Notes under the pieces: model-generated
Told to the model about the DNA's origin: nothing
The model's database searches: none
The model's input: the letters and a program-made list of their open reading frames with translations, nothing else
Shown here: positions 31,970 through 43,269 of the stretch, in pieces
Position numbering within the stretch: the stretch's first letter is position 1
Layout: the number at the start of each line of letters is the position of its first letter
Translations under genes and position numbers: made by a program
Virus record (IMG/VR): IMGVR_UViG_3300009168_000027
Location: 1-43,991 of that record
Strand: one strand, 5' to 3'
Length of the DNA: 43,991 nucleotides
From: a virus

Positions 31970-32313
31970 TTGTCACCGATGAAATGGTGAAGAAAGCATA
32001 TGACGCAGCGATGGGTGAGAAATATCTTATCCACGGTACCCGAGCAGCCCTAGAAGCCGTGGCTCCTATGCTGATCGCACAAGGGCTGCGAGAGGCGGCG
32101 GAAATTGCAACCCAAGAGTTTGATCCTTGGCGTTTCATCCTTAAGCGCGCTTATGAACTTGACCCGAGCGGAGCGGACGAACTAGAGGCGAAAATTGCAC
32201 AGGAGCTTGAAGGGATTAAGAAGCCCCACGGCCTTACCGTAGATGACCACGATGGCAGTGAATTGATTGTCGATAATGGGGGCGGGTTTATATGCGATCC
32301 CAGAACGATTTAA
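31966..32313 (+). CDS. Tandem paralogue A
   Basis: 115 residues. Its core, RAALEAVAPMLIAQGLREAAEIA (about residues 26-48), recurs in the next two genes. The N-terminus (MIVTDEMVKKAYDAA) matches the next gene as well (MITDEMVEKALEAA). The C-terminal ~45 residues are unique and acidic. It is joined to the next gene by TAATG. This motif is common in small phage proteins of unknown function. Confidence 0.75.
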   Translation: MIVTDEMVKKAYDAAMGEKYLIHGTRAALEAVAPMLIAQGLREAAEIATQEFDPWRFILKRAYELDPSGADELEAKIAQELEGIKKPHGLTVDDHDGSELIVDNGGGFICDPRTI

Positions 32314-32570
32314 TGATTACTGATGAAATGGTGGAGAAGGCGCTGGAGGCAGCCGAAGACGCCTATCCCGAGTCCAAGCGCAGCGACATGCGAGCCGCCC
32401 TAGAAGCCGTGGCGCCACTGCTGATCGCGCAAGGAATGCGGGAGGCGGCAAGTGTTGCCCGAGACAAGGCGTCATACCTGAACAATATGGGCTGGCAATC
32501 ACAATGCGACAGTGTGGTCGATACTATGTACACCATCCTCGCCCGCGCACAGGAGCTTGATCCGAAATGA
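32313..32570 (+). CDS. Tandem paralogue B
   Basis: 85 residues from ATG 32313, overlapping the previous TAA by one base. An in-frame ATG seven codons upstream lies inside gene A. It shares MITDEMVEKALEAA and RAALEAVAPLLIAQGMREAASVA with gene A and ends in a helix (VVDTMYTILARAQELDP). Function unknown. Confidence 0.75.
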   Translation: MITDEMVEKALEAAEDAYPESKRSDMRAALEAVAPLLIAQGMREAASVARDKASYLNNMGWQSQCDSVVDTMYTILARAQELDPK

Positions 32571-32791: not shown

Positions 32792-32973
32792 CAGTTAAAG
32801 AAATAAGAGCCTTACGTAAAAAATTGAAGGTGGTAGACGACAAGGAGGCTGCCGCCCTCTTGTCTTATATAGCACGTCTAGAATATGATTTGGCAAGGGT
32901 ACGAGCGACTTGCCGTGGATTAGAGATAAGGTTGTTAGACATAGAAGCAATTGACGGCCCCGGGGGAAATTAA
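32788..32973 (+). CDS. Small coiled-coil hypothetical protein
   Basis: 61 residues from GTG 32788, overlapping the preceding TGA. Basic at the N-terminus (KEIRALRKKLKVVDDKEA), then a helix (LLSYIARLEYDLARVRATCRGLEIRLLDIEA). Its stop shares a base with the ATG of the PrimPol-helicase gene (TAATG), so it may set translation of that gene. Confidence 0.65.
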   Translation: MTVKEIRALRKKLKVVDDKEAAALLSYIARLEYDLARVRATCRGLEIRLLDIEAIDGPGGN

Positions 32974-35249
32974 TGACCAGTATGACGGTTTTGCAGGCAA
33001 GCCCGGTGCGGCCCCTGACCAAGACAATAGTCGGTAAAGTTAATGCTACGAATGGCAAGACTGAGTACCAGATAGGTCAGTACGACCAAAAAATATTACA
33101 GTTCTCGTCGAAAGAGGTGGCGGTATCCAATTACGCGGACATGTGCCTGGTACTGAACAAGCTGATCACCGACAAGACTAGTTGCGTGATACGCGGTATG
33201 CTCAAAACGGGCACTGACAAAAGTTTCTTTATGCGCCGTAAAGCGTCTAATCCAGTGGGCGGTTGCATAGAGGACGTTGATCAAAAGTGGGTGTGTCTTG
33301 ATTTAGACTCAATCCCGTTGGCTGCCGTTGGCAACGACCTTAAGAAAGCGCCTGCAATACTACGGGGTATGCTGCCCAAGTGCTTCGCGGACGCCGCATG
33401 CTGGTGGAACTACTCAGCCAGTCAGGGGTTCAAACCAGAGGCCACGGTATCCATCCACATGTGGTTCTGGATGGACGACGAAATTTCAAATACCGAGTTG
33501 AAGCGGTACTTTGATCTATTTAACGAATCCATAAAGGAACTGTACGGGATCAACAAGCTGGTGGACCTCGTGCTGTTCGACAGTATACAGATACACTACA
33601 CCGCACCCCCGGACCTGCAGGGAGTGGCGGACCCTCTGTCGGATGGCCGCTACGGAGCCCTCCCAGGTCTACCAGAGGTACGGATCACCGAAGACTGGCT
33701 ACGGGACGACCGGTTGGACACAGGCGCCGTACTGAAGTATGTCAACAAGATCGGGGACGACAAAGAGGGGTTTCACAACCCTATTCTGTCAGCCTCCGCC
33801 GCGTGGGTGCGGTCGTATGGAGCGTCGGCGCGAGCCACAGCAGAATTCAAAGCATTGATCCGAGATAGTATAGAACGTGCAGACAAAAGCGCACACACCC
33901 CAGAACAGGTGGAGAGATACAAGTCCGACTCTTTTCTGGATTCTTTAATAAAGTCCGCCTCGGCTAAGGGCTTCGACAAGGACAACGTTCAGTTAGACGG
34001 CCAGGCACTAGAATTTTTCAAAGACCACGTGTTTTCATCGTCCGCTGGCAAATTTTACTGCATAAAGTCCAGAGAGTGGATAAGCACAGCCTCGTTCGAC
34101 CTAGTGGCGCGGCCCCATATTAAGATGGCCGGTGCCGCTAAGGTGTTTATGGACGCTGGCGGGACCATAGTGGACAATGTGTTGATAATACCGGGGCAAA
34201 ACCCGATGGCTACCACGGTGTTCAACGGTAAAAAGGTCTTTAACAGGTGGCAGGGCAGAAAAGGAGTGCTGCTAGATGAATACGACGTGGGGCCGTGGCT
34301 AAAGCACATAAGCTTCCTGTGCGACGGAAGGGAAAATGTCGCAACTTTGCTGCAGGACTACTTCGCCTTCATAATCGCGAACCCAGGAAAGAAGGTGATG
34401 TGGGCTCCGGTGCTAGGGTCAAGAATAGGCGGCACCGGGAAGTCAATGTTGAAGATACCGTTGCGAGCGATATACGGCGAGGGGATGGTAGAAATAGGGA
34501 CCGATGACGTAAGGAACAACTTCAACACGTATATGGAATACGAGTTAGTAGTGGTGGAAGAGATATACGGTCCCGACAACCGAATGATGGTGAACCAAAT
34601 CAAGGCCAAAATTACGGAGACCATGAGCCGTATCAACATGAAGGGTATTCCGCAGTACGACGCCCCGAACTTTGCTAACTTTATAATGTTCACCAACCAC
34701 CGGGTGCCGTTCCCAATAGAGACAGGAGACCGCAGATTCTTCTTTATCTTCAGCGAGAGCCTGCCGCGCGAACAAGAATACTACCGCCAATTCGGAGCAT
34801 GGATGGCCGCCAACGCCAACGGGTTGTACACTTGGGCAATGCAGAGGGACCTGACAAAATTCAGTCAATACCAAGCGCCGCTGGAGACAGATGAAAAGAG
34901 GAACATACTAGAATCGTCAATGTCAATGATAACTCAGAAGTTGGTATACGCAAAAGACCACATAACGTGGCCGCTCCAGCACGATTTAATAAACCCACCA
35001 GAACTGCTGCAGGCCATCAACAGCGGCTCCAAATACCAAATGTCGCTAAACTCATTGTCTGAAGAACTAAGAAAGATAGGCGCTAAGAAACTGGGGCGGA
35101 TGATGGCAAAAGACCGCAGCAGCATCACAGTGTGGGCAATTAGGGATTTTGAGAAATACGAAAATATGGCACAAAGTGATATTGTAGAAGAGATAAAGGG
35201 GAAGATGATTGGTGCGGAGCGGGACTATTACAACGGCATGAAAATCTAG
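32973..35249 (+). CDS. Primase-polymerase / SF3 helicase
   Basis: 758 residues. N-terminal archaeo-eukaryotic primase signatures: WVCLDLDSI with Asp110 and Asp112 (metal-binding DxD), SIHMWFW with His162, and LVLFDSIQIHY with Asp203. C-terminal superfamily 3 helicase: Walker A GGTGKS at 486-491, Walker B VVEE at 527-530, sensor FTNHRVPFPIETGDRRFFF near 572-592. It would prime and unwind, and possibly also polymerise, phage DNA. Cyanophage S-2L, a Z-DNA phage, also uses a PrimPol-type enzyme. Here it co-exists with a family A polymerase 2 kb downstream. Last gene of the operon starting at 31129. Confidence 0.85.
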   Translation: MTSMTVLQASPVRPLTKTIVGKVNATNGKTEYQIGQYDQKILQFSSKEVAVSNYADMCLVLNKLITDKTSCVIRGMLKTGTDKSFFMRRKASNPVGGCIEDVDQKWVCLDLDSIPLAAVGNDLKKAPAILRGMLPKCFADAACWWNYSASQGFKPEATVSIHMWFWMDDEISNTELKRYFDLFNESIKELYGINKLVDLVLFDSIQIHYTAPPDLQGVADPLSDGRYGALPGLPEVRITEDWLRDDRLDTGAVLKYVNKIGDDKEGFHNPILSASAAWVRSYGASARATAEFKALIRDSIERADKSAHTPEQVERYKSDSFLDSLIKSASAKGFDKDNVQLDGQALEFFKDHVFSSSAGKFYCIKSREWISTASFDLVARPHIKMAGAAKVFMDAGGTIVDNVLIIPGQNPMATTVFNGKKVFNRWQGRKGVLLDEYDVGPWLKHISFLCDGRENVATLLQDYFAFIIANPGKKVMWAPVLGSRIGGTGKSMLKIPLRAIYGEGMVEIGTDDVRNNFNTYMEYELVVVEEIYGPDNRMMVNQIKAKITETMSRINMKGIPQYDAPNFANFIMFTNHRVPFPIETGDRRFFFIFSESLPREQEYYRQFGAWMAANANGLYTWAMQRDLTKFSQYQAPLETDEKRNILESSMSMITQKLVYAKDHITWPLQHDLINPPELLQAINSGSKYQMSLNSLSEELRKIGAKKLGRMMAKDRSSITVWAIRDFEKYENMAQSDIVEEIKGKMIGAERDYYNGMKI

Positions 35250-35706: not shown

Positions 35707-36183
35707 ATGAAAGTTAAAGAACCTATCGGTAATAGTTTAACGACAGACGTGAAGGCACTAAAGATCATGGCCGATCGGATGGCTCATGATTCAGTCCAAG
35801 ATGCTTGTAGGGCTTACAAGCAGATGAAGGATTACAAAGAGGCGGTGGAGGCGGACTTGAAACTCCTCACAGCCGCCATCGACAAAGCCAAACAAGAAAC
35901 CATACCGACCATGTTCAAGGAGAACGGGATCACCTCGATCGCCGTGGACGGGTATCGATATGTTATATCCGAAACCGTACGTGCCTCAATACCCCCAGCC
36001 TCTAAGGAACAAGCCTACGAGTGGCTGAGGGAAAATGAACTGGAGAAGTTGATCATAGAAACTGTGAACTCCAGCACACTGGCGGCGGAAGCCCGTCGGA
36101 TGATAGAGGCCGGGAAAGAACTCGACCCAGACCTATTCAACGTGTATATCCTTCCCAACACATCAGTAACAAAGGTATCATGA
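35707..36183 (+). CDS. Helical protein, Gp157-like in layout
   Basis: 158 residues from ATG 35707, six bases after GGAGA. The first 80 residues are a long helix pair (AYKQMKDYKEAVEADLKLLTAAIDKAKQETIPTMFKENGITSIAVDGYRYVIS), followed by a short beta hairpin and a helical end (AYEWLRENELEKLIIETVNSSTLAAEARRMIEAGKELDPDLFNVYIL). Phage Gp157-type proteins have this helix-then-hairpin layout and lie next to ssDNA-binding or recombination genes, as here. Overlaps the next gene by four bases. Exact role unknown. Confidence 0.6.
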   Translation: MKVKEPIGNSLTTDVKALKIMADRMAHDSVQDACRAYKQMKDYKEAVEADLKLLTAAIDKAKQETIPTMFKENGITSIAVDGYRYVISETVRASIPPASKEQAYEWLRENELEKLIIETVNSSTLAAEARRMIEAGKELDPDLFNVYILPNTSVTKVS

Positions 36184-37025
36184 CAATGCCAGCCAAGAGC
36201 TTTATTGTTAATCCACAGGCAGTTTCAGTGGAAGTGCCGGACTTTATGAAGACCGCCAAGGCGGGACAGGGTACAGAGGGGTTGTCGCACAACGCTCTCA
36301 CTCCGCCCCGGCTAAAACTGATTCAAGCAACATCGCCGGAACTAGCAGAGAACGACAAACTGCGACCCGGTGTATTCTCAAACAACGTCACAGAGCAGGA
36401 CTACGGCCAGACTGTAGACATTATACCGTGCTATCTGAGCGAGGCGTACTTCCTGTTCGCGCCGCGCCTACCTGGGGTGCCCGGTGGACTGCTCGCCAGA
36501 GCCAACGACGGTATACACTGGCAACCAGCCAACACGAGCTTTGACGTGGTGATCGACAAGAAAGGTGCCAAGACCACCTGGACAACGGCAGACACCGTGG
36601 CCAAGTCCGGTCTGGACGTCTGGGGCACATTCGACCCCAACGACAAAAAGTCGCCGCCTGCCGCCACACATGTTCTCAACTGCGTATGTCTGGTGGTGAA
36701 CGACCTGGGGGCGGGGCCAATGGTGGTGTCGTTTCTACGGTCGGGGCTCAAGGTCGGCAAGAAATTTGCCGGTAACCTGAAGATGGCGAGAGTGCCGTCT
36801 TTCGGTAGAGTCTTCCAACTGTCCAGCTTCAAAGTGGAGGGACAGAGCGGACCGTATTACGAGCCCAGAGTCAAGGCTGCAGGGTTCGTGGGAGACGTGA
36901 ACACGTACAACGAGGCCGAGGCTATCTACCAGATGGCCAGGGCACAGGGCGTTGACGTGGATATCGCGTCGGAAGCACACGAACCGGCTAACACCACGGT
37001 AGAGGACGTGGCCGGTAAGTACTAG
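36180..37025 (+). CDS. Putative ssDNA-binding or recombination protein
   Basis: 281 residues. Sequence pattern: a disordered start with ALTPPRLKLIQATSPEL, a central beta-rich core (VDIIPCYLSEAYFLFAPR, THVLNCVCLVVND, GPMVVSFLRSGLKVGKKFAGNL), a Tyr/Phe-rich segment (VFQLSSFKVEGQSGPYYEPRVKAAGFV) and an acidic tail (EAHEPANTTVEDVAGKY). Beta core plus acidic C-terminus, and position between a Gp157-like gene and the DNA polymerase, suggest a ssDNA-binding protein. This is inference; no family signature was confirmed. Confidence 0.55.
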   Translation: MTMPAKSFIVNPQAVSVEVPDFMKTAKAGQGTEGLSHNALTPPRLKLIQATSPELAENDKLRPGVFSNNVTEQDYGQTVDIIPCYLSEAYFLFAPRLPGVPGGLLARANDGIHWQPANTSFDVVIDKKGAKTTWTTADTVAKSGLDVWGTFDPNDKKSPPAATHVLNCVCLVVNDLGAGPMVVSFLRSGLKVGKKFAGNLKMARVPSFGRVFQLSSFKVEGQSGPYYEPRVKAAGFVGDVNTYNEAEAIYQMARAQGVDVDIASEAHEPANTTVEDVAGKY

Positions 37026-37338: not shown

Positions 37339-39179
37339 TGCTTGCCAATAAGCTGCCTATAGCGCAACTTGCGTTAAGAAAAGTTTTAGATGCTGACACT
37401 GTAGCGGTAGACGTTGAAACTTCAGGGTTGGACGCTTTTCATCAACACATAGTTGGTTGGGTGCTAACAATTGGACCGGCGCCCGACGATTCTTTCTACA
37501 TACCGGTTCGCCATGCCGGGGGTGGTAACCTGCCCTCTGGTTCCCAGGTGCCGTCCATGGCTACCAACTGGGACGGATCGATCCATCCTATTGAGATAGA
37601 GATAATAAAGGCTCTGTACGGCAAGGAGCTGGTATTCCACAACGCGGCGTTCGACATGAGGTTCATGCACCGCCTTGGATGGTCGCCGTCCGGACCAATC
37701 AGGGACACAATGATTGGTGCCTATCTGACGGACGAACTTAGGCCGTCCCTGTCGCTGGAGGCTGTATGCCGAGAGGAGAAGGTGCAGGAGAAAAGAGGCA
37801 CTGACCTATACAAAGCAATATCCGCTAGAGTTGGGTGCGCCCCCGATAGGAACTCCATGGGGTTCTTGTGGCAGATGCCTGGGGACGATGATCAAGTAGT
37901 TGACTATTCTTGCGGCGACGGCACTTCAACATGGCAACTGTGGGAGTCATTGAAGGTATCAATCTCTAAACCGTATTATGTCAGCGCTAATCGAGAATAC
38001 AGCCTAGAGGCTGTGGCTAGGGTAGAGTTTGATCTGATACCGGTCCTGCACAAAATGTCGATGCGCGGGGTTAAAATAGACGAGGAGCGGCTGGGCAGTC
38101 TAACCAAAGAAATCCTAGAGGAGTTTGACCAGTCTCTGGCAATGATAGGCGAAATGAATGTGCGGTCGCCGCTTCAAGTTAAGGATTACTTTATAAAGCA
38201 CGGCATCACTAACTGGCCAAAGACAGAGAAGGGGGCGGCGTCCTTTCCAGAGTCGTGGCTAAAGACTACCAAGGAAGGCCAGGCTATTGTTAGGGTGCGG
38301 AAGAACAGGACACTGTTAGATTCGTTCTTGATTCCCATGAGCGGCAGGTTTATGCACAACGGCAGGGTGCACACCGAGTTTCACCAAACCCGAGACGAGG
38401 AGTTCGGAACCCGCACCGGCAGGCTATCCACTACCAGCCCCAACATGGGGGCAATGCCGGGAAAGAGACAGGGGGAGCTGGGGAGGCGGTTTCGTGAAAT
38501 ATTCATACCAGACGACGGCATGGAATTCACCGAGGCGGACTATAATGTTTGCGAAATACGGATCTGTGCGCACTATTGTCAAGCTAAGGCGTGGCTGGAC
38601 GGGTTCAAAGCAGGAAAAGACCCCCATACGGCAATCTCCGATGCGTTGGGTATTCCACGTAGGCATGCAAAGACTATCAACTTGGCGCTCATGACCGGGG
38701 CTGGAAAGACCAAGATAGCGTCGGAGTTGGGAATACCACTGCAGGAAGGGTTGGCGGTAGTTGAGCAGTATTTTGACGGCTTACCCGAGTTAAAGGAGTT
38801 CCAGAGACAGGCGACACGAGCGTTCGAGAGCCGTGGCTTCATATCGACCTTGTTGGGGCGGCGGCTACAATTGGCCAAACCCGATAAGGCGTACACCGCT
38901 GTTAATCGACTAACGCAGGGCGGCAACGCTGACATAATCAAGTCCGCGATGGTGGCGCTGGACAAGGTGCCGAATATCGAGACAATGCTGACCGTCTACG
39001 ACTCCACTCTATTCCAACATGCCAAGGGAGACACTAAGGCCAGGAACGACGCTCTCGATACGATAGTTAACATGAAAGAGTTGGGAATCGACTTCTCGGT
39101 GCCGATGCGAGCGGAGTACGGCTCCGGGGCAAGCTGGGGCGAAGCCACGTTCAACGAGGAGGGGTGGTTAGAAAAATGA
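37338..39179 (+). CDS. dpoZ: Family A DNA polymerase, DpoZ candidate
   Basis: 613 residues. The 3'-5' exonuclease is intact: DVET with Asp25 and Glu27, HNAAFDMRF with Asp106, and YSCGD with Tyr190 and Asp194. Polymerase motif A is DYNVCEIRICAHY with catalytic Asp401 and the steric-gate Glu kept. Motif B is RRHAKTINLALMTGAG (441-456) with Lys445; Leu449 stands at the position of E. coli Phe762 and Thr453 at Tyr766. Motif C is VYDST with Asp555, where most family members have HDE. The purZ-mazZ-datZ genes 1 kb downstream make it a DpoZ-type enzyme that copies with 2-aminoadenine. That assignment rests on context and needs a phylogeny; family A itself is certain. Confidence 0.8.
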   Translation: MLANKLPIAQLALRKVLDADTVAVDVETSGLDAFHQHIVGWVLTIGPAPDDSFYIPVRHAGGGNLPSGSQVPSMATNWDGSIHPIEIEIIKALYGKELVFHNAAFDMRFMHRLGWSPSGPIRDTMIGAYLTDELRPSLSLEAVCREEKVQEKRGTDLYKAISARVGCAPDRNSMGFLWQMPGDDDQVVDYSCGDGTSTWQLWESLKVSISKPYYVSANREYSLEAVARVEFDLIPVLHKMSMRGVKIDEERLGSLTKEILEEFDQSLAMIGEMNVRSPLQVKDYFIKHGITNWPKTEKGAASFPESWLKTTKEGQAIVRVRKNRTLLDSFLIPMSGRFMHNGRVHTEFHQTRDEEFGTRTGRLSTTSPNMGAMPGKRQGELGRRFREIFIPDDGMEFTEADYNVCEIRICAHYCQAKAWLDGFKAGKDPHTAISDALGIPRRHAKTINLALMTGAGKTKIASELGIPLQEGLAVVEQYFDGLPELKEFQRQATRAFESRGFISTLLGRRLQLAKPDKAYTAVNRLTQGGNADIIKSAMVALDKVPNIETMLTVYDSTLFQHAKGDTKARNDALDTIVNMKELGIDFSVPMRAEYGSGASWGEATFNEEGWLEK

Positions 39180-39424
39180 GCCCGACAGGTCCTAAAATTC
39201 CTCTTAAGAAACCAGAGTCCTACCTTGATCCTATGGCTCAGGCCGGTATGAACGTGGGTTGTGGGTATGGTAATTATGGTCTTGGGAGTTATCCAGGCAG
39301 TTACCTTCCTCCATGGGCAAATGTGTATGGGCCGACCGATTGGCAGCGCCAGGCATGGATGCTCCAGCAGTGCCATCGTAAAAAGACAACGGACGACTTT
39401 GGCAACACAGGGAGAGAAGGGTGA
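39176..39424 (+). CDS. Small Gly/Tyr-rich protein
   Basis: 82 residues from ATG 39176, overlapping the polymerase stop (ATGA). Basic start (MSPTGPKIPLKKPESYLDP), then Gly/Tyr/Asn/Pro-rich sequence (GCGYGNYGLGSYPGSYLPPWANVYG) and a basic C-terminus. Low complexity, no known motif. It sits between polymerase and nuclease genes, overlapping both. Function unknown. Confidence 0.6.
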   Translation: MSPTGPKIPLKKPESYLDPMAQAGMNVGCGYGNYGLGSYPGSYLPPWANVYGPTDWQRQAWMLQQCHRKKTTDDFGNTGREG

Positions 39425-39888
39425 CTCTTCGAGAAGAAATGATAGAGGAGTGGAAACGAGAGGGGAAGCCAAAGATGCCAACAGAACTCGATATGCAAGA
39501 GAAGCTGGTGGAGGCCGTCAAGAAAGTAGAGGGTGGCTACGGGTTTAAATTGTCTAATAAGTTCCTGGCAGGAATCCCAGATTTATTTCTATCCACTCCC
39601 AGTGTCGGGCCGGTCCTTCTAGAAGTGAAGATGGTCGAGGGGCCGGAGCAACTGGTGTTATTGACACCGTTGCAGCGCCATGTTATAATAAGGCTGAAGG
39701 CAGCCGGGACAGCGGCGGGAATAGTAGTAATAAGACCGGAAGAGGAATTCAGAAGATACACGGCCTATGTAACTACCGATCACGACGTAGTTAGAGTGAA
39801 CAAAGACATGGCTAAGTTCGTTAAGGCAGTGGGAGAGCCGTGGCCGATCGAATACATGATGATGGTAGTGCGGCAGCATGTCACATAG
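39421..39888 (+). CDS. VRR-NUC-type nuclease
   Basis: 155 residues from GTG 39421, overlapping the previous TGA (GTGA). The PD-(D/E)xK core is clear: KFLAGIPDLFL with Asp54, and VLLEVK with Glu68 and Lys70, then a helix around TPLQRHVIIRLKAAG and the strand AGIVVI. This is the VRR-NUC arrangement, seen in stand-alone phage nucleases that cut branched DNA such as Holliday junctions. A role in resolving replication intermediates before packaging is inferred. Confidence 0.8.
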   Translation: MTLREEMIEEWKREGKPKMPTELDMQEKLVEAVKKVEGGYGFKLSNKFLAGIPDLFLSTPSVGPVLLEVKMVEGPEQLVLLTPLQRHVIIRLKAAGTAAGIVVIRPEEEFRRYTAYVTTDHDVVRVNKDMAKFVKAVGEPWPIEYMMMVVRQHVT

Positions 39889-39932: not shown

Positions 39933-40181
39933 ATGATAATACAAAAATGCACTTGCGGTGAAATCTTTGAAGACAGCAAAGACCTCATGTTCCATATACG
40001 CCAGTGGGCCAGCGCCTGTCATAGGGTGGCGTTGCAACCTAAATTAGACCCCCGAGACCCGGACTACTCAAGAGAAGGCATATTCCAGACTCACAACTGC
40101 TGGATGTGCGACCACGGCAGATTGAAGTGCGTTAACGGCAGTTACAGCCAGTGCAGCTACCCACGAGCGAGGAATGACTGA
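39933..40181 (+). CDS. Small Cys/His-rich protein
   Basis: 82 residues, after GGAGGA. Cys6 and Cys8 (KCTCGEIF), then HIRQWASACH, and a second cluster THNCWMCDHGRLKC with further Cys to the end. Likely binds one or two zinc ions. It is the first gene of the Z operon; its TGA shares a base with the purZ ATG (TGATG). Function unknown. Confidence 0.7.
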   Translation: MIIQKCTCGEIFEDSKDLMFHIRQWASACHRVALQPKLDPRDPDYSREGIFQTHNCWMCDHGRLKCVNGSYSQCSYPRARND

Positions 40182-41200
40182 TGACATTGAGCGTAATCTT
40201 TGGTGGGCAGTTTGGATCGGAGGGTAAGGGGCTAATGGCCTCTTATCTCGCCAAACACCAAAAAATCAGCCTGGCAACGACCGATGCCGGTCCGAATGCC
40301 GGGCATACGGCAATATGGGAGGGGGAGAAGGTAGTTACCTTCCACCTGCCGATGGCCGGGGTGTTATCTCCAGAGTGCTTGATTTGGCTGAACGGCGGCT
40401 CCATTATCAACCCTGACAAGTTGATCGAAGAAGTGGAGGGGTTTGACGTCCAAGGATTTAAAGTGTCGGAGCGGCTTCGAATCCACCCCGCCGCCGCTAT
40501 CATTGACAGGGAGGATATTTTATCCGAAGGTGATCCTTCTGGGGTTATGTACGAAATCTCCGGCACTATGAAGGGTGTCGGCAGGGCCGCCGCCAGAAAG
40601 GTCATGCGCAGCGCCAAAGTGGCCGACGACATACCTGGACTAAAACACTGGATAACCCCGTTCAGCAAGGACTTCTCGCTGTCCAGGGAGAACGTGGTGG
40701 TAGAAGTAGCCCAGGGGTTCTCGCTGGGCGTCAACGCTGGGTTCTACCCGTACTGCACCCACCGAGTTTGTACACCAGCGCAGGGGTTAATGAATGCCAG
40801 TATCCCTACTAACCTTCCCCATACCGTCTACGCTGTCATCCGCGTCAATCCAATCCGTGTCGGTAATACACCGTCCGGATACAGCGGAGACATTTATTCA
40901 GATCATGCTGAAACAACCTGGGAAGACCTTGGCCAGGAGCCGCAATACACCACTGTTACGAATAGGCTCCGCAGAGTGTTCACCTATTCCCACGAGCAAG
41001 TAGAACACATGATCAACTGCTGCAAGCCTGACGTAATATTGGTCAACTTCGCACAGACCACGATGAACAAGATTGTGCATAACATAACCGAGAAAGCTTC
41101 TAGAGTATACACCAACAACGGTTGGCCCGTCCCCCAGTTCTTATACGGCTATGGCCCAAAACCAGAGGATGTCACAAGTGAAATACGAGGAAACGATTGA
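40181..41200 (+). CDS. purZ: 2-aminoadenylosuccinate synthetase (PurZ)
   Basis: 339 residues, shorter than bacterial PurA (about 430) and close to phage PurZ. The nucleotide loop reads FGGQFGSEGKG: Ser13 replaces the catalytic Asp of PurA (GDEGKG), the substitution that marks PurZ. NAGHT with His42 (catalytic His), EKVVTFHLPMAGVL, and the C-terminal TTVTNRLRRVF are as in the family. PurZ joins dGMP to aspartate, giving dSMP, the precursor of diaminopurine deoxynucleotide. It is followed by mazZ and datZ with overlapping frames. A PurA-like role is unlikely given Ser13 and the neighbours. Confidence 0.93.
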   Translation: MTLSVIFGGQFGSEGKGLMASYLAKHQKISLATTDAGPNAGHTAIWEGEKVVTFHLPMAGVLSPECLIWLNGGSIINPDKLIEEVEGFDVQGFKVSERLRIHPAAAIIDREDILSEGDPSGVMYEISGTMKGVGRAAARKVMRSAKVADDIPGLKHWITPFSKDFSLSRENVVVEVAQGFSLGVNAGFYPYCTHRVCTPAQGLMNASIPTNLPHTVYAVIRVNPIRVGNTPSGYSGDIYSDHAETTWEDLGQEPQYTTVTNRLRRVFTYSHEQVEHMINCCKPDVILVNFAQTTMNKIVHNITEKASRVYTNNGWPVPQFLYGYGPKPEDVTSEIRGND

Positions 41201-41432
41201 CGCCATATGCAACGCATCCCGCCTAAAGATGCTTATCAACTCGCATAAGGGAGACATAGAGCAGCTGGACCCAAAGATGGCGATTGAGCTAGCCAAGGGA
41301 GAACTAAACGAACTGTTGGAGGCGATGGAGGCCGACAACTACGAGAAGGCCATTACGGAGTGCGGAGACGTAATGAATTTTATAATATCCGTAGGATACA
41401 ATGCCATAGAAGGATACAGGAGACGCAAATGA
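41178..41432 (+). CDS. mazZ: MazG-type nucleotide pyrophosphohydrolase (MazZ)
   Basis: 84 residues from GTG 41178, nine bases after AGAGG; an in-frame ATG at 41151 has no binding site, so the shorter form is preferred. The MazG metal-binding helices are visible: GELNELLEAME, then ITECGDVMNFII (ExxxE...ExxD pattern). In the S-2L pathway MazZ converts (d)GTP to (d)GMP, supplying dGMP to PurZ. It overlaps purZ by 23 bases and datZ by four. It is on the short side for a MazG domain, but the motif spacing is complete. Confidence 0.85.
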   Translation: MKYEETIDAICNASRLKMLINSHKGDIEQLDPKMAIELAKGELNELLEAMEADNYEKAITECGDVMNFIISVGYNAIEGYRRRK

Positions 41433-41923
41433 GATACACAGACCCAATGTTAAGAGACATGATGCATGTAAAGCGGTGGGCAATTGTGCCTACTACTAAG
41501 CAGCAATCCATAGCAGAACATCAGTACTTTGTGATGCTGTACACCATCGAATTATGCAAGCTGACGGGGCTGACACCAACTAGCAATCTGCTAACCTACG
41601 CCGCCCTGCACGATGTAGACGAAATTCACAGCGGAGACATACCAGCACCGTATAAGCACCCAAGCATAGAATACGACAGCAAGTACACGCAGAATCTTAA
41701 GTCTCTCCTGACCGGCAGCGAGATAAGTCTAGTCAAACTGGCCGACCTTATGGAAGCCACAATGTTCTTGATAGACGAGGCTAACAGTGGCAACAAGAGG
41801 ATTAAACTGTTACTTGAGAAAGTGTTCGCTGAGACTCTAAAGGCGGCTGAAAAGTTCGGGGTGGTGGCAGCGGTGACCTACATGCTCGATGAGGCTTCTG
41901 ATTACAGGGGGAGGTTAGAATGA
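41429..41923 (+). CDS. datZ: HD-domain dATP triphosphohydrolase (DatZ)
   Basis: 164 residues from ATG 41429 (ATGA overlap with mazZ, CAGGAGAC before it); the frame is open further upstream but that part lies inside mazZ. HD signature: His31 in SIAEHQ, His61-Asp62 with Glu65 in ALHDVDE, Asp106 in LADLMEA. It belongs to the YfbR-like group. Arg16-Trp17-x-Ile19 sits where S-2L DatZ has its base-contact residues. DatZ removes dATP to dA and triphosphate so that the polymerase meets dZTP instead. Position between mazZ and a helicase supports the call. Confidence 0.88.
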   Translation: MRYTDPMLRDMMHVKRWAIVPTTKQQSIAEHQYFVMLYTIELCKLTGLTPTSNLLTYAALHDVDEIHSGDIPAPYKHPSIEYDSKYTQNLKSLLTGSEISLVKLADLMEATMFLIDEANSGNKRIKLLLEKVFAETLKAAEKFGVVAAVTYMLDEASDYRGRLE

Positions 41924-43269
41924 CTACGCTATTCCCTGTACAACAGACCGCCTACGACAGAGCCAAGGGCAAAAGGAGATACGGCTACTTTTTAGAAATG
42001 GGCCTTGGCAAGACCCTGTTGGCTCTTCATGAATTTGAAGGACTTTTAAATGATGGGGACGTGGATATTATGATGATATTCTGCCCCAACTCTTTGATAT
42101 CCACCTGGAAGAGCGAGATAGAGAAGCACGGATACAAATTTAATATTCTCACCAAGCCGGATTCTCATAGGCAAGTGGAAAGGGGGTCGGTGATCCTATA
42201 CAACTATGAATCTATTATAGCTTCGCCGGGAAAGCAGATAGCCAATATCCTAACTATTCACAGAGCCTACGCTGTATTCGATGAGTCGGTGCAGATAAAG
42301 AATCACAAGGCGGCTAGGTGGAAGTTGATTGAGAAGTGGCAGCACATGCTGACGTACGCCCGGCTGCTGTCTGGGCGTCCCACGGTACAGTCGCCCATGG
42401 ACCTCTGGACGCAGCTGACTATGCTCAGGGGTGCCGTGAGCAAGAGCCCCTACGCCTTCCGCAACACCTACTGCAGGATGGGCGGCTGGATGAACAAGCA
42501 AGTCATCGGCACTATGAATCCTGATCAACTTACTAAGATTGTGAACGAGGTGGCATTCGTGGCTACTAAGAAGCAATGGACCGACCTGCCAGAAAAGTTA
42601 TACACCGACCGCACCTACGAAATGACGATGTTGCAAAAACACGCCTACGACAAAATGTTCAGAGACATGATAGTGGAGATACAATCCAGACCAATCTCTG
42701 TACAGCAGGCGGTGCACAAGTATAGCAAGCTCCAACAGGTGGGCAGCGGCTTCATGTTTGACGAAACCGGGGAGGCCGTGCCGATCATGAACTTTGACGG
42801 AGTTCCTAAGCTGAAGGTGCTGGAGGAAATACTGGAGGAGACAGACGGCAAGGTTATCGTGTTCGCACACTACCGCCCCTCAGTGGAAGCCCTGAGCAAA
42901 CACTTCAAGTGTCCGACCATTCGGGGCGGCATGAAGGAGGAGGAGATCAAGAATGTCATCGAAGAATTCAACAACGGCGACCACCAAGTGTTCGTCGGAC
43001 AACTCGCGGCCGCCAAATATGGCCTCACTCTATTGGGGCATCCCGGAATGCCGTGCCACACTACCGTATACTTTGAGAACTCATACAGTCTCGACGCCAG
43101 AATCCAGTCAGAAGACAGAAACCATCGCCACGGACAAAAAAACTCCGTCTTGTACATAGACTTAATGGGGACCGCCGTGGAGCGCAAAATAGTCAGGGCG
43201 CTCCAGCACAAAGACGACATTAGCCGATTAGTTATGGGAATGAATGAGGAGGTACAACATGCCGCGTGA
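41920..43269 (+). CDS. SNF2-type SF2 helicase
   Basis: 449 residues. Motif I MGLGKT at 27-32, motif II DESV at 121-124 followed by QIKN (SNF2-type DEXQ/H-IKN), motif III LSGRPTVQSPMDLWTQL, motif V near QVFVGQLAAAKYGLTL and motif VI QSEDRNHRHGQKNSV near 400. Family members translocate on dsDNA and in phages are thought to help replication or recombination. It overlaps datZ by four bases. Comparable SNF2 and VRR-NUC genes occur with purZ in phiVC8-like podoviruses (from memory). Confidence 0.85.
   Translation: MTTLFPVQQTAYDRAKGKRRYGYFLEMGLGKTLLALHEFEGLLNDGDVDIMMIFCPNSLISTWKSEIEKHGYKFNILTKPDSHRQVERGSVILYNYESIIASPGKQIANILTIHRAYAVFDESVQIKNHKAARWKLIEKWQHMLTYARLLSGRPTVQSPMDLWTQLTMLRGAVSKSPYAFRNTYCRMGGWMNKQVIGTMNPDQLTKIVNEVAFVATKKQWTDLPEKLYTDRTYEMTMLQKHAYDKMFRDMIVEIQSRPISVQQAVHKYSKLQQVGSGFMFDETGEAVPIMNFDGVPKLKVLEEILEETDGKVIVFAHYRPSVEALSKHFKCPTIRGGMKEEEIKNVIEEFNNGDHQVFVGQLAAAKYGLTLLGHPGMPCHTTVYFENSYSLDARIQSEDRNHRHGQKNSVLYIDLMGTAVERKIVRALQHKDDISRLVMGMNEEVQHAA

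Follow-up and report, generated by a model that had tools for sequence, protein, structure and literature searches.

The 43,991-bp virus record IMGVR_UViG_3300009168_000027, analysed over its whole length and called the window below, contains genes resembling purZ, mazZ and datZ not far from a gene for a family A DNA polymerase (PolA). The question arises whether this phage replaces adenine in its DNA by 2-aminoadenine (Z) and whether its polymerase is one of the DNA polymerases (DpoZ) that serve this purpose. The best explanation of our data is that the locus is a functional operon for making a Z genome, carried by a sister lineage of the phiVC8/S-2L-type Z phages, with a variant PolA of its own (probability roughly 0.8).

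The phage genome and the organization of the Z operon

The record is a complete phage genome with an exact 123-bp direct terminal repeat. Structural genes (portal, major head protein, terminase) are encoded on the minus strand and replication genes on the plus strand (Table 1); a search for tRNA genes in the 43,991-base record found none. In a partial sister phage (L002, 54-80% protein identity) the gene order continues across the terminal repeat. Among named phages, Ochrobactrum phage vB_OspP_OH (MT028492; hereafter OH) is the closest: 16 of the 48 compared window ORFs have counterparts in it at 21-44% identity, including those for the portal, the capsid and the whole Z operon. A DNA-level search of the phage collection revealed no near relative. 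Upstream of the replication genes listed in Table 1, there is also a 59-nt direct repeat, whose copies are 86% identical and 350 nt apart.

Table 1. Features of the window around the Z operon.
Feature	Position	Strand	Remarks
59-nt direct repeat	32041..32099 and 32391..32449		
Primase-helicase (DUF5906)	32973..35249	+	replication module shared with polymerase and Z genes
Pam3 gp34-like protein	36180..37025	+	counterpart at the same place in OH (30%)
Family A DNA polymerase, 613 aa	37338..39179	+	best PDB match Klenow (1D8Y), then phiVC8 DpoZ (7PBK)
PolA codon Thr453	38694..38696	+	
PolA codon Tyr554	38997..38999	+	
Endonuclease of PHROG 93	39421..39888	+	VRR-NUC-like, judged by its position in OH and S-2L
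Perfect sigma-70 consensus promoter (TTGACA-17-TATAAT)	39661..39689	+	no second one in the window
Small Cys-rich ORF, 82 aa	39933..40181	+	1-base overlap with purZ
purZ, 339 aa, predicted succino-2-amino-dAMP synthetase	40181..41200	+	profile and PDB matches, tree
mazZ, MazZ-2 type, 84 aa	41178..41432	+	from GTG 41178 (93 aa from ATG 41151)
datZ, 164 aa, predicted dATP triphosphohydrolase (HD, YfbR-like)	41429..41923	+	
SNF2-type helicase	41920..43269	+	operon end; 36% to OH, 80% to L002

The initial annotation had read purZ, mazZ and datZ as overlapping genes at 39933-41923, with a family A polymerase about 1 kb away. The three genes are indeed real, lie on the plus strand and overlap as described, and purZ follows the end of the polymerase gene at a distance of about 1 kb. 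The purZ/mazZ overlap amounts to 50 nt if mazZ starts with the ATG and to 23 nt if it starts with the GTG; the GTG is the likelier start, because CAGAGG precedes it and the sister phage has ATG at this place. mazZ and datZ, as well as datZ and the helicase gene, overlap by 4 nt. That the genes stand behind one promoter, as was also proposed, is plausible: the perfect promoter, located inside the upstream nuclease ORF, is the sole one of the window, with 0.01 such matches expected by chance. The C-terminal half of the small Cys-rich ORF (CWMCD..GRL.CVN) is 76% conserved in the sister phage, and its N-terminal half is absent there.

PurZ, MazZ and DatZ

The best family match of the window PurZ is the NCBIfam PurZ model NF038379 (E 5e-71; its 239.4 bits are below the cut-off of 300), and the protein also matches the PHROG PurZ family (E 1e-61) and phiVC8 PurZ in the PDB (E 1.5e-47). 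In the phylogenetic tree, it falls inside the phage PurZ clade. As reported initially, Asp13 of PurA is substituted by serine (Ser13 in QFGSEGKG); further motifs are TTVT (257-260), NFAQ (289-292) and RV (226-227). When compared with the substrate pocket of S-2L PurZ (residue list from PMC8342488), 26 of 30 residues are identical, including the ATP residues N305, F306 and Q308 and the TTVT loop; the differences comprise Y21F, a Ser-Gly swap at 130-131 and R244T. The protein is thus predicted to be a succino-2-amino-dAMP synthetase (dGMP + Asp -> dSMP).

DatZ matches the PHROG family "dATP triphosphohydrolase" (E 5e-19) and DatZ in the PDB (E 1e-9), and all 14 tested residues of S-2L DatZ are identical, among them the HD metal residues, W20, P79 and I22, the last of which excludes the 2-amino group (PMC8065100).

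MazZ is 41% identical to phiVC8 gp26 and 39% to its ZP6 counterpart (both MazZ-2). Its catalytic ExxE..ExxD residues are E51, E54, E70 and D73 (numbering of the 93-aa form), which, together with K26, K33 and N76, are invariant across 36 homologues. The window MazZ alone had no match in Pfam, and a single-sequence search against the PDB returned only noise; among the 36 homologues, 19 match Pfam PRA-PH and 9 match MazG. The predicted model (pLDDT 92) is all-helical and closest in the PDB to AF_0060 and MazG-related proteins. The protein therefore combines the four acidic residues (ExxE/ExxD) with the MazG-type helical fold of MazZ-2, the fold matches being weak (best E 0.3, prob 0.99).

The three genes are adjacent, with mazZ between purZ and datZ. 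Profile and PDB matches, active-site residues and the MazZ-2 identity confirm their earlier interpretation as a Z cluster, and this supports the view that the phage would have Z DNA in its genome.

The polymerase of the window

The retained proofreading residues (D25, E27, D106, Y190, D194), the catalytic aspartates, Glu710 and Lys758 (Klenow numbering for the latter two) are all found in the window PolA, for which an AlphaFold2 model with a pLDDT of 92 was obtained. The initial claim that this polymerase completes the set as DpoZ is not supported: the protein scores 229 bits on the DpoZ model NF038380 (cut-off 500), whereas the model of ordinary Pol I gives 240; two of the three phiVC8-type insertions (2 and 3) and the Phe common to both DpoZ clades are missing, and the protein belongs to a clade of its own (see below). 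Insertion 1 was rejected as a mark of DpoZ, as purZ-free relatives have it too. At the position of Klenow Y766, the window PolA has Thr453; both DpoZ clades have Phe here (F459 in phiVC8), and OH has Ser. Further substitutions are Leu449 at F762, Tyr554 at H881 and Ser556 at E883. The HD motif accordingly reads YD, which occurs in only one other of 82 PolAs with Thr, Ser or Asn at position 766; the Tyr may lower the activity of the enzyme. Judged from its sequence, the protein appears to be a DpoZ of neither published type but a member of a third Z-linked clade; it may prefer dZTP over dATP.

Position 766 and the presence of purZ

We collected 180 distinct PolAs from PurZ scans, from polymerase scans with patterns outside motif B, which did not touch position 766, and from named reference phages. 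(A polymerase scan with the window PolA sequence alone gave no matches; alignments were required.) Position 766 is occupied by Thr in 79, Ser in 2, Asn in 1, Phe in 21, Leu in 1 (L186, with the polymerase at the contig end) and Tyr in 76 of them. purZ accompanies 81 of the 82 Thr/Ser/Asn PolAs (74 full genes and 7 cut by the contig end); for the last one (L225), it was not found in the only 2.8 kb present downstream. All 21 Phe cases have purZ. Among the 76 Tyr cases, 69 are without purZ in the fetched stretch and 7 possess it. PurZ scans are biased towards loci with purZ, so that a fair comparison has to use the PolAs found by polymerase scans only: among these, each of the 24 that have neither Tyr nor Phe and are followed by at least 6 kb of sequence carries purZ. 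When the complete records of 49 controls, 14 of them named phages and 35 virus contigs, were searched, PurZ was not found; the same search recovered PurZ in five of five known positives. Thirteen of the named control phages have Tyr766.

The fourteenth, Streptomyces phage LazerLemon (MH229865; L342:268-2280), has a Wayne-type Phe766 PolA beside a MazG gene, and no PurZ was found in its whole genome; it seems to possess a Z-like polymerase without a Z cluster. Phe766 is therefore refuted as a strict Z marker. Similarly, replacement of Glu883 by Ser or Ala is not diagnostic: Glu883 is absent in 99 of 102 scorable Thr/Ser/Asn/Phe PolAs, but the purZ-free PSTCR5 and Azira likewise lack it. Glu710 is retained in all 82 Thr/Ser/Asn PolAs.

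Despite the many sequences, the association between position 766 and purZ reflects few independent events, since the PolAs concerned fall into just three clades; clustering of all 180 PolAs at 45% identity yields 13 clusters.

Phylogeny of PolA and PurZ

In a PolA tree calculated without the motif B and C columns, the window-type polymerases, i.e., those of uncultivated Z-cluster phages and of OH, form one clade (bootstrap 100, SH-aLRT 100) apart from the phiVC8-type, Wayne-type and purZ-free PolAs. The PurZ tree consists of two sister clades with the same division as the PolAs. Five purZ phages of the window PolA clade (L031, L044, L046, L052, L083) retain Tyr766, and two of them have HDS for HDE; they are possible intermediates. 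As these Tyr-bearing purZ phages nest inside the clade, the sequences suggest that Tyr was lost there after purZ had been gained.

A more far-reaching reading, to which we give slightly less than even odds, is that the window PolA represents a third kind of 2-aminoadenine polymerase, found in a sister lineage of Z phages that is large and uncultivated. Helix O would then have exchanged its Tyr, a residue described as universal in family A, for Thr (rarely Ser or Asn) after the acquisition of purZ, in parallel to the replacement of Tyr by Phe in both known DpoZ clades, and a loosened closed state would favour triple-bonded pairs.

A separate PolA clade is thus established, but its origin independent of phiVC8-type DpoZ is not supported, because a tree in which the two are joined is compatible with the AU test (p 0.69) and is even slightly better. 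An earlier candidate interpretation, a third independent acquisition of a Z polymerase, was dropped for the same reason, and a sign test on independent pairs had no power with only two pairs. It is accordingly quite conceivable, if somewhat short of evenly likely, that the window PolA is a divergent phiVC8-type DpoZ-2 going back to one ancient acquisition with a later Phe/Thr split. The sister position of the PurZ clades fits this as well; the missing insertions 2 and 3, Thr instead of Phe and the low score on the DpoZ model speak against it, and the presence of Tyr-bearing members within the clade hints at separate changes to Phe and to Thr. A published NCBI survey distinguished two DpoZ groups (PMC12884076), and OH may be part of the one called DpoZ-2, a placement compatible with the AU result.

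Comparison with known Z phages and distribution of the cassette

OH is most similar to the window: it has the same order primase - PolA - nuclease - purZ - mazZ - datZ - SNF2 helicase, a PolA of the same clade, and a related capsid and portal (identities are 38% for PurZ, 31% for PolA and 36% for the helicase). It differs in Ser766, in an extra ORF between mazZ and datZ and in the low level of identity. We found no report on its base content in the openly licensed literature. phiVC8 and ZP6 (PMC8599892, PMC8515928) share the order purZ - mazZ-2 - datZ and the same enzymes and residues; unlike the window, they have a primase gene between polA and purZ, and their PolA belongs to another clade, with Phe459, insertions 2 and 3 and an intact HD motif. 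Cyanophage S-2L (PMC8342488, PMC8065100) has a purZ-mazZ-datZ operon and an identical DatZ active site, but its MazZ is of the MazZ-1 type, and it replicates by means of a PrimPol, having no PolA. Phages of the Wayne type (PMC12884076) resemble the window in their Ser-type PurZ and in a PolA without Tyr766, whereas their PurZ is PurZ0, DutZ/DmtZ replace DatZ/MazZ, and their PolA is of another clade with Phe.

The cassette itself is ordinary and belongs to an already known type, found in the same order in OH. PurZ relatives are present in 207 phage records, all of them below 60% identity. A MazZ match lies between purZ and datZ in 84 of 110 loci with both genes, and for S-2L and its relatives, mazZ has been described as lying between datZ and purZ in a conserved Z cluster (PMC8342488). 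The initial suggestion that the phage carries a fuller set than some described members cannot be upheld, as 82 examined loci hold PolA, PurZ, MazZ and DatZ together and PolA plus the cluster is known from seven named phages (phiVC8, ZP6, SH-Ab 15497, Bm1, BUCT555, PMBT28 and OH).

PurZ-like proteins with Ser at the position of PurA Asp13 are also encoded on over 70 genome contigs of bacteria and archaea (L258-L333), and most of those included in the tree fall outside the phage PurZ clade. Because of these cellular proteins, Z DNA cannot be deduced from Ser13 alone. One phage-type PurZ, which branches within the PurZ subclade of the window, was found on a 994-kb contig of a proteobacterial MAG (L255:5265-16932), in a chromosomal operon cmk - purZ - Ham1/ITPase-like - rpsA - SppA without DatZ or MazZ; another locus (L254:5811-14551) has the same ORF layout by length. 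This points to a possible cellular use of a phage PurZ.

Proposed mechanism of Z-DNA synthesis

According to the reactions of the characterised homologues of PurZ, MazZ and DatZ, MazZ would convert dGTP to dGMP, which PurZ would condense with aspartate, using ATP or dATP, to succino-2-amino-dAMP. Host PurB and kinases would complete dZTP, DatZ would remove dATP, and the phage PolA would copy the genome with Z replacing A.

In the open state of Pol I, Tyr766 is stacked against the template base, and in the closed state it forms a hydrogen bond to Glu710; its replacement by Ala lowers fidelity, and Y766F is near wild type (PMC4882331). The latter is a warning that Phe and Thr at this position may act differently. 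For DpoZ, it has been proposed that A is rejected through frequent backtracking into the exonuclease site, although the same structural study found no single cause for the choice of Z over A (PMC8599892). Thr766 combined with intact Glu710 and exonuclease would fit the backtracking model: loss of Tyr766 would destabilise the closed state, so that triple-bonded Z:T and G:C would be kept and A:T would be sent to the intact proofreading site. We infer that the loss of Tyr766 in the PolAs of Z phages is an adaptation.

Nevertheless, the polymerase of a Z phage need not be selective, because S-2L makes Z DNA with a non-discriminating PrimPol (PMC8065100). In the window phage, too, dATP depletion by DatZ and the supply of dZTP could set the base, Thr766 having another cause (fidelity, stiffer Z template). 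We consider this less likely than not, yet worth serious attention: the purZ phages with Tyr766 in the same clade are in line with it, whereas the loss of Tyr766 tracks purZ closely in our survey and DpoZs with Phe at 766 are dZTP-selective (PMC8599892, PMC8775771).

Finally, a decayed Z cluster or one used for another purpose (a change of the dNTP pool without Z DNA) is very improbable, as the purZ, mazZ and datZ frames are all intact, the catalytic residues are retained in all three enzymes and the sister phage keeps the operon at 55-80% protein identity, even though cellular Ser-type PurZ-like proteins exist where Z DNA is not known and the HD motif of the polymerase has the H-to-Y change.

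Significance of the variant PolA

The functional Z operon with its own variant PolA, our preferred reading, draws attention to a PolA branch that is so far undescribed in the openly licensed literature and in which a residue conserved in nearly all family A polymerases is replaced. As this deep clade lacks insertions 2 and 3 of phiVC8 and is yet changed at the same Tyr, the search for the cause of Z selectivity narrows to one residue, and the variant PolA offers a direct handle on how polymerases choose a modified base. Most PolAs found here beside Z clusters belong to a clade with OH as the sole cultured phage examined, which suggests that the diversity of Z phages is only partly represented in culture.
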